Of a stretch of DNA of 64,000 nucleotides, positions 42,766 to 49,021 are shown one piece after another. The position numbers and the translations under genes were made by a program. The first letter of the stretch is position 1, and each line of letters starts with the position of its first letter. Origin of the DNA: an uncultured Pelagibacteraceae bacterium (GTDB lineage Bacteria; Pseudomonadota; Alphaproteobacteria; Pelagibacterales; Pelagibacteraceae); assembly GCA_902578775.1 (NCBI GenBank), contig CACHEF010000005.1:1-64000 (forward strand), given 5' to 3'. Below the pieces are notes generated by a model. The model was not told the DNA's origin and did no database searches. It saw nothing but the letters and a program-made list of their open reading frames with translations.

Positions 42766-43901
42766 TGAAAAAAGTAGCCATCATAGGGGCTGGAATTTCT
42801 GGATTATTCATTGCAAACTTATTCAAAAGAAATCCTAATTATCAAATCACAATCTATGAAAAAAATATATCGATTGCACTAGAGGAAGGTTATGGTGTTC
42901 AACTATCAGTAAATAGCATCAAATTTTTAAATGAAATAGGATTTGAAAAATTACAAAATAAAGAAAAATTTTCTCCTAAAAAAATAGATTTTTATTCCAA
43001 TAAGACTTTAAATAAAATTTGTGAATTGGATATTGCGGAATTTAATTCAGAAAACTGTGAGTACACTACTTTAAAAAGATCATCATTAATTAATTTCTTA
43101 AAAACAGATTTGGAGGGTTTGATAAAAACTGACCACAATATTTCCAAAATAGACTATCAAGACAAACAGATTAAACTGTATTTTGAAAATGATGAAATAA
43201 AAGAATGTGATTATTTAATTATTTCTGATGGGGTTTTTTCTAAATGTAAAAGTCTAATTTCAAAAAATGAAGCTAAACCTATATATAATAATACATTAGC
43301 AATTAGAGGAATCTTGAATAAATCCCCTGAAAATATTAATAGTAAAAATATCTCCTTATTTTTAGGTTCAGATTTTCACCATGTTATTTATCCAGTAAGT
43401 TCAAGTGGAGATTTAAATTTTATAGCCATAATGAAATACAAACTCTCAACAGAAGATCAAAAAAATTATTCATTATTCAGTGATGATACGTTTATCAAAA
43501 AAGTATTACAAAAAATTCCTATAGAAAATAAAGATTTTTTAAAAGATTTAAAAATATTTCCAGTATTTGTAAGCGACAATTTCTATAAGTTACAAAGTAA
43601 TAATGTTCATTTAATAGGTGATGCTTTTTTTGCATTTCCTCCTTCATTTGCTCAAGGGGCATCACAGTCAATTGAAGGTGCTTATGAGCTTTTTAAAAGT
43701 ATTGATAATAATACAGAAAGTAATTTTTTTAAGAATAGAGTAAAAAAAACAAAAATGGTTAATACTAGATCAAAATTTAATCAGTTTGCTTTTCACTTAT
43801 CTAATCCATTAATGACATTTGTTAGAAATATTTTTTTAAAAAGATTGGTCAAAAATAAAAAATTTTTAGAGTCTTACTTGGGAAAAATCTACAAGAATTA
43901 G
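42765..43901 (+). CDS. FAD-dependent monooxygenase (UbiH/PHBH superfamily)
   Basis: The 378 residues start with a GTG that overlaps the mutY stop. Seen are the FAD motif I-I-G-A-G-I-S-G-L, a central D-Y-L-I-I-S-D-G (DG motif) and the C-terminal L-I-G-D-A-F-F-A-F-P-P-S-F-A-Q-G-A (GD motif). This is the class A flavin hydroxylase pattern. Ubiquinone ring hydroxylation is one possibility, oxidation of another aromatic is another; sequence does not decide. The stop overlaps that of ccrM (TTAG). Confidence 0.8.
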   Translation: MKKVAIIGAGISGLFIANLFKRNPNYQITIYEKNISIALEEGYGVQLSVNSIKFLNEIGFEKLQNKEKFSPKKIDFYSNKTLNKICELDIAEFNSENCEYTTLKRSSLINFLKTDLEGLIKTDHNISKIDYQDKQIKLYFENDEIKECDYLIISDGVFSKCKSLISKNEAKPIYNNTLAIRGILNKSPENINSKNISLFLGSDFHHVIYPVSSSGDLNFIAIMKYKLSTEDQKNYSLFSDDTFIKKVLQKIPIENKDFLKDLKIFPVFVSDNFYKLQSNNVHLIGDAFFAFPPSFAQGASQSIEGAYELFKSIDNNTESNFFKNRVKKTKMVNTRSKFNQFAFHLSNPLMTFVRNIFLKRLVKNKKFLESYLGKIYKN

Positions 43902-44968
43902 CTATTATTAACCAATCGTTGTCTTAAATGATCAATTGGAACTACCGAACCATTTAAATTATAATGCCAATAAGTCCATCCATTGCAACTTTCAGCACCT
44001 AAAATTGTTGCTGCTACTTTGTGAATTGAGCCCTCTGTTTGCGCATGTTTGATACTTCCATCAGCCATTATTTTTGCACTAATTTTCTTTTTATTGTCAA
44101 AAATAGTAGTTCCTGGCTTTATTATTCCTAATTCAACCAATGAACCAAAAGGTATTCTTGGTTTAGACCTATTATTTTTTAAAGTATCTAAGTAATCGTC
44201 CTCAATCGGTCTTGTATTTTTTAATCTTTGCTCTGCAGCTTTAAAATAAGCTTTTTCCTTCTCTATACCGTAATAATTTCTACCTAATTTCTTAGCAACT
44301 GTTGCTGTTGTTCCGGAGCCTAAAAAAGGATCCAAAACCAAATCATTTTTATTTGAAGTGGCTAATAAAATTCTATGAAGTAAAGCCTCTGGTTTTTGGG
44401 TTGAATGAACCTTTTTGCCATTATTTTTTAGTCTTTCAGATCCATTACAAATTGGTAGATCCCAATTAGATCTCATTTGAAGGTCATCATTTAAGCATTT
44501 TAAAGATTGATAATTAAAAGTGTATTTTGATTTTTCTGACTTAGAGGCCCAAATTAAAGTTTCATGAGCATTAGTAAATCGAGTTCCTCTAAAGTTTGGC
44601 ATTGGATTTTTTTTATTCCAAATAACATCATTTAAAATCCAAAAACCCAAGTTTTGAATTGCAGAGCCAACTCTAAAAATATTGTGGTAACTACCAATTA
44701 CCCAAATTGCTCCATCTTTTTTTAAAATTCTTTTACATTCACTTAACCAAGAATATGTGAAATCATCATATTTTTTAAAACTTTCAAATTGATCCCACTT
44801 ATCATTTACTGCGTTTACTTTAGATCTATCAGGTCTAGTTAGCTCACTCTTTAGTTGTAAGTTATAAGGTGGGTCAGCAAAAATTAGATTAAAAGTTTCA
44901 TCAGGAATTTTTTTTAGCTCCTTTAAACTATTTCCATTAATTAATTTATTTTTTAAATCTAAATTCAT
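43898..44968 (-). CDS. ccrM: Cell-cycle DNA methyltransferase CcrM (GANTC-specific)
   Basis: Adenine-N6 methyltransferase of the beta class. The catalytic F-A-D-P-P-Y-N-L motif near residue 31 comes first, and the SAM-binding D-P-F-L-G-S-G-T-T motif near residue 208 follows. The C-terminal extension (S-L-V-E-L-G-I-I-K-P-G-T, then W-T-Y-W-H-Y-N-L) is characteristic of CcrM enzymes, which methylate GANTC and time the alphaproteobacterial cell cycle. The 356-residue length fits. Two GANTC sites lie in its own leader (44986-45001), suggesting feedback by methylation. Confidence 0.95.
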   Translation of the reverse strand: MNLDLKNKLINGNSLKELKKIPDETFNLIFADPPYNLQLKSELTRPDRSKVNAVNDKWDQFESFKKYDDFTYSWLSECKRILKKDGAIWVIGSYHNIFRVGSAIQNLGFWILNDVIWNKKNPMPNFRGTRFTNAHETLIWASKSEKSKYTFNYQSLKCLNDDLQMRSNWDLPICNGSERLKNNGKKVHSTQKPEALLHRILLATSNKNDLVLDPFLGSGTTATVAKKLGRNYYGIEKEKAYFKAAEQRLKNTRPIEDDYLDTLKNNRSKPRIPFGSLVELGIIKPGTTIFDNKKKISAKIMADGSIKHAQTEGSIHKVAATILGAESCNGWTYWHYNLNGSVVPIDHLRQRLVNNS

Positions 44969-44985
44969 TTTTTAAAAATAAATTA

Positions 44986-45001
44986 GACTCCAAAAAGATT
45001 C
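44986..45001. promoter_or_regulatory. Paired GANTC methylation sites upstream of ccrM
   Basis: GACTC (44986-44990) and GATTC (44997-45001) lie 18-33 bp upstream of the ccrM ATG, with starts 11 bp apart, about one helical turn. Both are targets of the enzyme encoded just downstream. In Caulobacter, GANTC sites near the ccrM promoter are reported to affect its transcription, so autoregulation here is an inference from that case. Confidence 0.5.
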
Positions 45002-45016
45002 TTAGGTCAACCTAGG
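45001..45016. repeat. Imperfect palindrome upstream of ccrM
   Basis: CTTAGGTCAACCTAGG has perfect 5-bp arms TAGGT/ACCTA around CA, and the outer bases also mostly pair. It adjoins the second GANTC site and is unusually GC-rich for this genome. A dimeric regulator could bind it; no known consensus is claimed. Confidence 0.4.
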
Positions 45017-45087
45017 ATTGAATTTTTTGAATTAGAATAGTGTGTGAATTTTTATAGATAACAATATCTAGTGTTTCTACGTGAAAC

Positions 45088-45648
45088 TTATTTCATTTTA
45101 TTAATTGGTGAAAAATTTTTTCTATGTTGGTTCGTGATGCCTAAATTTTTAATTGCTTTCAAATGTTTCTTAGTTCCATAACCACAATTCTGATCCAAAT
45201 CATAACCTTTATATTTTTTGGATAAATTTGCCATCATTTTATCACGTGAAACTTTGGCAATTATTGATGCTGCAGAAATCGAAGGTATTTTTTTGTCACC
45301 TTTTATTATTGGTTTAAGGTTATAATTTTCTAATTCTGGTATTTTATTTCCATCAATTAATACGAGCGTAGGTTTTTTTTTTAGTTTTTTTATTGCTCTT
45401 CTCATAGCTAGTAAGCTTGCATTCAGAACATTAATTTTTTCAATTTCTTTTACAGAAGCTATTCCAATTGACCAAATAGAATTTTTTTTAATGTATTTTG
45501 ATAAAATTTCTCTTTTTGATTTTTTTAAAATTTTTGAGTCCTTCAATATTTTTTTATTTACAGACTTATTTAAGATTACTGCAGCTGCATAAACTGGCCC
45601 AATCAGACTACCTCGACCCACTTCATCAACCCCAGCAATTATTTTCAT
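45088..45648 (-). CDS. rnhB: Ribonuclease HII
   Basis: Cleaves RNA in RNA-DNA hybrids, including single ribonucleotides in DNA. The 186 residues have G-V-D7-E8-V-G-R-G-S-L-I-G-P-V, L-I-D-G-N-K and A-K-V-S-R-D-K, all standard. Overlaps the uracil-DNA glycosylase stop by 4 bp. In many alphaproteobacteria rnhB precedes ccrM, as here. Confidence 0.95.
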   Translation of the reverse strand: MKIIAGVDEVGRGSLIGPVYAAAVILNKSVNKKILKDSKILKKSKREILSKYIKKNSIWSIGIASVKEIEKINVLNASLLAMRRAIKKLKKKPTLVLIDGNKIPELENYNLKPIIKGDKKIPSISAASIIAKVSRDKMMANLSKKYKGYDLDQNCGYGTKKHLKAIKNLGITNQHRKNFSPINKMK

Positions 45649-48947: not shown

Positions 48948-49021
48948 TGGGGCGTAGCCAAGTGGTAAGGCACGGGTTTTTGGTACCTGCATCCTAGGTT
49001 CGAATCCTAGCGCCCCAGCCA
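48948..49021 (+). tRNA. tRNA-Gln (anticodon UUG)
   Basis: A full cloverleaf of 74 bases: acceptor TGGGGCG/CGCCCCA, D arm GCC/GGC, anticodon stem CGGGT/ACCTG with loop TTTTGGT (TTG at 48980-48982), T arm CTAGG/CCTAG with TTCGAAT, discriminator G and an encoded CCA end at 49019-49021. The first-position T and the UUG anticodon identify glutamine. It lies 33 bp after ispE and ends 3 bp before the cca start. Confidence 0.97.

Follow-up and report, generated by a model that had tools for sequence, protein, structure and literature searches.

The core promoter of ccrM in an uncultured Pelagibacteraceae bacterium apparently contains two built-in targets of the enzyme that the gene encodes, and methylation of this core promoter probably feeds back on ccrM itself, a reading to which a probability of about 0.6 is given. 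The recurrence of the same arrangement in distant relatives suggests that CcrM marks help to set the production of CcrM. The sites, their spacing and often the start codon are fixed across distant families; hence, the self-regulation of CcrM becomes a concrete, testable geometry, which specifies four adenines and a transcription start predicted to coincide with the ATG or lie close to it, with the cases without GcrA and the cases without the sites as natural controls. SAR11 bacteria are among the most abundant in the ocean, and the finding bears on the timing of ccrM without CtrA in this group.

The ccrM core promoter and its two GANTC sites

In the window (the whole 64,000-nucleotide stretch of DNA that was analysed), ccrM is separated by 119 bp from the gene upstream, and the intervening DNA contains the following features:

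43898–44968, minus strand: ccrM, GANTC adenine methyltransferase, with its ATG at 44968
44973–44977, minus strand: predicted transcription start zone, placed from the −35/−10 geometry and the ATG offset
44982–44987, minus strand: −10 hexamer TCTAAT, 17 bp from the −35 hexamer, with the usual second-position A absent
44986–44990, minus strand: CcrM site 2, reading GAGTC on the ccrM strand and covering the upstream edge of the −10 hexamer, at −22 to −18 from the ATG
44997–45001, minus strand: CcrM site 1, reading GAATC on the ccrM strand and placed within the −35/−10 spacer, at −33 to −29 from the ATG
45005–45010, minus strand: −35 hexamer TTGACC, of which TTGAC is conserved upstream in SAR11
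45016–45022, minus strand: TTCAATC element, present in 91 of 92 distinct genus promoters and forming TCAA-N7-TTGA with the −35 hexamer
45088–45648, minus strand: rnhB (ribonuclease HII), the gene upstream of ccrM

The top NCBIfam match of the ccrM product is CcrM, with full-length similarity over residues 6–351 (E 5e-173) and a score of 574.9 bits, which lies below the equivalog cut-off of 830 of this model; judging from its name, this model may have been calibrated on Caulobacter and related bacteria. GANTC methylation has been published for other Pelagibacter, namely NP1 and marine and sea-ice MAGs (PMC9516812, PMC12570018), and in the NP1 culture 99.86% of the GANTC sites were fully methylated (PMC9516812).

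An earlier note on this DNA had described GACTC and GATTC, with starts 11 bp apart, at 18–33 bp before the ccrM ATG. Both are present, GACTC at 44986–44990 and GATTC at 44997–45001, and their distances from the ATG are confirmed as listed above. GANTC is found 85 times in the window against a dinucleotide-shuffle mean of 177, approximately half of the expectation, and at this density 0.79 pairs 5–11 bp apart are expected per 64 kb. At least two GANTC sites within the 119-bp rnhB–ccrM gap have a probability of 0.011 at window density and of 0.025 with the gap letters shuffled, while the 1.13-Mb assembly holds three 11-bp-spaced pairs versus two for the backwards-read control pattern. Taken alone, the pair is therefore only mildly unusual and constitutes weak evidence, so that the case rests on conservation and position. 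A chance pair in AT-rich intergenic DNA would be compatible with the gap probabilities of about 0.01–0.025 and the roughly 0.8 close pairs expected per 64 kb, but it is contradicted by the conservation in SAR11 and across families described below; on these comparative data a chance origin was rejected and can be regarded as extremely improbable.

A second 11-bp GANTC pair, GAATCAAAAGTGAATC, is located at L290:1501-1516 (G000:C1:27283-27298); on one side are umuDC-like genes (Pfam Peptidase_S24 and IMS), on the other a GFA-family gene in divergent orientation. The GAATCAAAAGTGAATC 16-mer also occurs in eight other genomes of the genus, the gene context being that of this genome alone, and a LexA-like GAAC-N7-GAAC lies near the pair; LexA and GANTC sites have been described as prone to overlap (PMC7987155). 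A further GANTC at 49002–49006, 23 bp before the next gene, is promoter-like but is situated within a tRNA-Gln gene (48948–49021).

For comparison, 151 SAR11 upstream regions were assembled from the window, 80 related loci, which are the best 80 of 585 matches and hence biased to close relatives, and 70 regions from the genomes of an order set, in which 73 of 78 genomes gave a match and 71 were used (G018, partial, and G172, broken, were left out). Since the two collections may hold some genomes twice, distinct 75-bp promoter sequences were counted, 113 in total, including 92 in the genus. In one alignment the GANTC columns are fully conserved by construction, both-site promoters having been chosen for it; the counts quoted here are unconditional.

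All 151 regions contain TTGAC no more than about 150 bp upstream of the gene, and, when the promoters are aligned on TTGAC, TCTAAT follows at the 17-bp spacing in 91 of the 92 distinct genus promoters. Counted from the first base of TTGAC, site 1 begins at offset 9, or 8 in a second clade, and site 2 at offset 20. The 17-bp spacing is unchanged where site 1 has shifted by one base, which places the sites within the core promoter. A simple consensus scan, which demands the second-position A in the −10 hexamer, missed the ccrM promoter and put its single promoter match elsewhere; thus, the promoter call rests on conservation, and the GANTC sites lie inside a −35/−10 core that is itself deduced from conservation. 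No known regulator was matched to the TTCAATC element at 45016–45022.

In 88 of the 92 distinct genus promoters, the ATG follows the start of TTGAC at a distance of 41–42 bases; hence, the predicted ccrM leader is only about 5–7 nt long in the window and the genus. The earlier note had assigned the sites to the promoter/leader zone. The promoter part of this assignment holds, and the leader part falls, both sites being situated upstream of the predicted start point; an effect of the sites through the leader or the RNA was rejected because so short a leader is predicted. An intrinsic terminator was likewise rejected: one terminator-like match exists at 45000–45017 on the plus strand, with none in the shuffles, but the flanking genes are on the other strand and part of the stem varies between clades.

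Conservation in SAR11 and across alphaproteobacterial families

Conservation in relatives, which the earlier note had named as its own test, is extensive. Within the genus, counted in the set that draws on the best 80 of 585 matches, both sites are kept in 114 of 121 regions and in 85 of the 92 distinct promoters, GANTC fills the site 1 slot in 87 and GAGTC the site 2 slot in 90, and the exceptions comprise five promoters without site 1 and two without site 2. In family f2, the CcrM of which is 57–63% identical to that of the window, both sites are found in 17 of 19 regions and 8 of 10 distinct promoters. The spacing, also part of that check, is constant within clades without being rigid: it is 11 bp in one genus clade, 12 bp in another, and mostly 9–11 bp in other families. 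Another GANTC lies 24 bases before TTGAC in 47 of the 92 distinct genus promoters and is absent in the window.

The variable letter of the motif behaves differently in the two clades. Where a distinct promoter keeps both sites, site 1 has A as its N in 67 of 67 cases in the 11-bp clade, versus C in 11, G in 4, A in 2 and T in 1 of the 18 in the 12-bp clade; site 2 is GAGTC whenever present in the genus, and GAATC in the f2 promoters examined. Because N is fixed at site 1 in the 11-bp clade and at site 2 in the genus, part of the conservation may reflect promoter sequence or recent ancestry and not methylation. Extended to the whole arrangement, this would mean a conserved promoter sequence that merely contains GANTC, selected for sigma-factor contacts (e.g., GAGTCTAAT), with methylation irrelevant. 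The near-invariance of GAGTC at site 2 (90/92) and of TCTAAT (91/92) and the constant N of site 1 in the 11-bp clade agree with such a selection; however, between families the N and the flanking letters vary while GANTC is kept, site 1 differs in position by a single base between clades, a further GANTC upstream is frequent (25 of 50 families; 47 of 92 in the genus, not in the window), and genus g4 keeps a TCTATT hexamer at the same spacing after the loss of GANTC. Selection on sigma-factor contacts alone is accordingly considered improbable as an account of the pair.

The layout decays in other genera of the same family. In g119 (4/4), g120 (1/1) and g117 (2/2), only the first slot is filled, g118 contains one second-slot site in two genomes, and g4 has neither site in 2 of 2 genomes while keeping GcrA, with TCTATT at the 17-bp spacing in both. 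The site-less SAR11 genomes of g4 and g118 form a natural contrast for the role of the sites.

Two observations accompany these losses. In g119 (L173, L174, L176 and L177), the two GANTC sites have a spacing of 16 bp, with offsets of 9 and 25 from TTGAC, and the usual second slot is empty. In L181 and L101 (g4) and L179 (g118), both promoter sites are lost and the predicted leader is longer, while ccrM and GcrA are kept.

The double-site layout reaches beyond SAR11. In a class set with one genome per family, 97 of 114 genomes gave a match, 81 were used (the window genome and 15 weak matches were left out), and 79 remained after L223 and L232, without a tblastn anchor, were dropped; the region compared was the 250 bp preceding the first ccrM residue in the match, and no phylogenetic weighting was applied to the 79-family counts. 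G103, a SAR11 genome among the 79, lacks the layout. TTGAC-N1..5-GANTC is found in 44 of 79 families (200 shuffle rounds: mean 0.31, maximum 3), and the same pattern with a second GANTC 4–7 bases further on in 29 of 79, versus 0 in 200 shuffle rounds. In 213,546 bases flanking 29 class loci, a total taken over both strands, the one-site pattern occurs twice and the full pattern not at all. GANTC is most frequent 19 bases after the start of TTGAC (+19, 30 counts), followed by +8/+9 (27) and, on the other side of TTGAC, −15 (14); of the 50 families in which one or both slots are filled, 25 have a GANTC 13–17 bases ahead of TTGAC. TTGAC with GANTC in both slots (offsets 6–11 and 17–21) exists in 28 of 79 families, compared with a mean of 1.29 (maximum 6) for random TTGAC placement and of 1.62 (maximum 7) for local jitter; the full pair is absent in the other 51.

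The start codon is often fixed as well. The most upstream in-frame ATG lies 35–38 bases from TTGAC in 23 of 49 promoters (one of the 50 is without an ATG); of the remaining ATGs, none are at 39–51 and 26 are at 52 or more. An offset of 35–38 coincides with the expected transcript start, so the ccrM mRNA is probably leaderless in many families (class loci L101–L129 and L203–L254).

GcrA, CtrA and the proposed feedback

GcrA is encoded in this genome at G000:C4:13070-13504, and both its DNA-binding and its sigma-interacting domains align to GcrA chains in the PDB. It is also found in 71 of 77 further SAR11 genomes; the six without a match are read as probable assembly gaps, in the case of G017 because genomes with near-identical ccrM promoters (G158, G162, G164 and G168) have GcrA. 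In the class set, 65 of 79 genomes are over the GcrA cut-off, and none was detected in the other 14, in which a second model also gave no significant match (best E 0.0036); these 14 genomes are 90–100% complete. Both sites are present in 7 of the 14 families without detectable GcrA versus 21 of the 65 with it (Fisher P 0.23).

For CtrA, none of 14 SAR11 genomes tested came near the cut-off (best 148 bits), while 1 of 14 control genomes was over it. The result for SAR11 agrees with PMC2877005 and PMC7987155, the latter listing ctrA as missing in Ca. Pelagibacter ubique. Two of the seven genomes with both sites and without GcrA, G116 and G117, score 156 and 147 bits against a CtrA cut-off of 350. 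Since half of the GcrA-less families keep both sites, and G116 and G117 keep them far below the CtrA cut-off, neither GcrA nor CtrA appears to be a precondition for the layout.

A CtrA site at the promoter was considered and rejected: although the TCAA-N7-TTGA dyad is reminiscent of the CtrA box TTAA-N7-TTAA, none of the tested SAR11 genomes yielded CtrA. The TTAA-N7-TTAA box is absent from the 119-bp gap, in which TCAA-N7-TTGA occurs instead, and CtrA-like boxes (TTAA-N6..7-TTAA) are found upstream of ccrM in 6 of 79 families (shuffle mean 1.8, maximum 6). In this respect the promoter departs from the Caulobacter type, in which CtrA and a CtrA box occur together.

GcrA was an early lead for the layout as a whole, weakened once its presence was compared with the layout. 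As an activator, GcrA would bind the methylated sites, contact sigma70 domain 2 and turn ccrM on, in a positive feedback or feed-forward. The two-domain GcrA of this genome and its presence in 71 of 77 further SAR11 genomes are consistent with such a role, as are the stimulation of open-complex formation by GcrA at methylated promoters (PMC7403470), the protection of fully methylated ctrA P1 from −35 to −10 by GcrA (PMC3667746), the prediction, made across alphaproteobacterial orders, that ccrM is one of the core targets of GcrA (PMC7987155), and the −10 hexamer without its usual A, as a cofactor-dependent promoter might have. However, the layout is no rarer without GcrA (7/14) than with it (21/65), and g4 lost the sites yet keeps GcrA. 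The published GcrA motif is YGAKTCK (PMC7987155), and no such preference was found in Brevundimonas; the window matches it only partly, the leading Y being missing at both sites on either strand. Activation of ccrM by GcrA is therefore regarded as possible, though rather unlikely.

The preferred reading is a feedback through methylation of the core promoter. CcrM would methylate both sites, placing methyl groups on the two strands at about −25/−23 and −14/−12, all expected to lie in the DNA that sigma70 and RNA polymerase contact and melt; methylation should hence alter initiation, either directly, via GcrA, or both, and CcrM would control its own supply. The sign of the feedback is probably repressive: full methylation would most likely repress ccrM and replication would relieve the repression, forming a homeostat. 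GcrA, where present, probably modulates this by binding the methylated sites, as the layout also exists without it. The reading is supported by the pair being intact in 85 of 92 (genus) and 8 of 10 (f2) distinct promoters, by the filling of both slots in 28 of 79 families against a mean of 1.29, by the GANTC letters staying while the N differs, by the methylated state of GANTC in natural Pelagibacter (PMC9516812), by the weaker activity of the Agrobacterium gcrA promoter when methylated (PMC11514494), and by the 7 of 14 GcrA-less families that keep both sites. The 51 of 79 families without the full pair and the losses in g4 and g117–g120 count against it.

A stronger form, in which the methyl groups act directly on sigma70–RNA polymerase as a methylation sensor without a reader, is more tentative. 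Such a homeostat would be older than, and independent of, the CtrA/GcrA circuits and would still run alone in the CtrA-less SAR11; this proposal is put forward with considerable doubt.

As for timing, ccrM lies in the probable origin-proximal part of two complete SAR11 genomes (coarse GC skew, 20 samples of 12 kb each), so that a promoter switched on when hemimethylated would predict early expression. GANTC methylation in Pelagibacter follows an origin-to-terminus gradient, which suggests late CcrM activity (PMC9516812). The origin-proximal position of ccrM speaks, weakly, against a simple fork-passage timer for late expression.

Comparison with known systems

In Caulobacter, the GANTC sites of ccrM are situated downstream of the −10 hexamer, whereas in SAR11 one site occupies the spacer and the other covers part of the −10 hexamer. 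The Caulobacter crescentus ccrM promoter resembles that of SAR11 in having two GANTC sites in the promoter region, and its transcription is reported to be methylation-dependent (PMC10073500, PMC2217572), ccrM being reported as active from hemimethylated DNA only (PMC2217572). However, this precedent, to which the earlier note had appealed for a feedback of methylation on ccrM transcription, differs because CtrA activates ccrM there (PMC10073500, PMC2217572), and none of the 14 SAR11 genomes tested showed a CtrA.

Among Caulobacter cell-cycle start sites, 96 have GANTC within 50 bp, with one cluster between −35 and −10 (PMC4287350). GcrA binds methylated GANTC and helps sigma70 to open methylated promoters (PMC3667746, PMC7403470). 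The GcrA/CcrM promoters of Caulobacter, such as ctrA P1 and mipZ, are like SAR11 ccrM in that GANTC lies in the core and a GcrA gene is present; unlike them, the ccrM layout has two fixed slots and also exists in families without detectable GcrA.

In the Agrobacterium gcrA promoter, which is rich in GANTC, methylation by CcrM lowers activity, also in E. coli, which is without such regulators (PMC11514494). This parallels the case proposed for ccrM, although the gene is another one, gcrA, and the sites number six in 250 bp.

Two earlier surveys touch the same question. PMC2877005 counted GANTC in 500-bp promoter regions of alphaproteobacterial cell-cycle genes and concluded that control by methylation could not be derived; its survey gives counts without positions, in contrast to the fixed slots described here. 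PMC7987155 (2021) predicted ccrM as a GcrA target across orders, for the same gene and likewise from GANTC, accepting an extended GANTC anywhere from −200 to +100 with location not considered, and its section on ccrM gives no spacing, core-promoter placement or leader length, unlike the present analysis. In the open-licence titles, abstracts and passages covered, no description was found of two GANTC sites in a fixed geometry, of the short leader or of families that have the layout without GcrA. What is known is ccrM as a predicted GcrA target (PMC7987155); what the present analysis adds is the geometry of the two sites, the short predicted leader and the occurrence of the layout in families without detectable GcrA.
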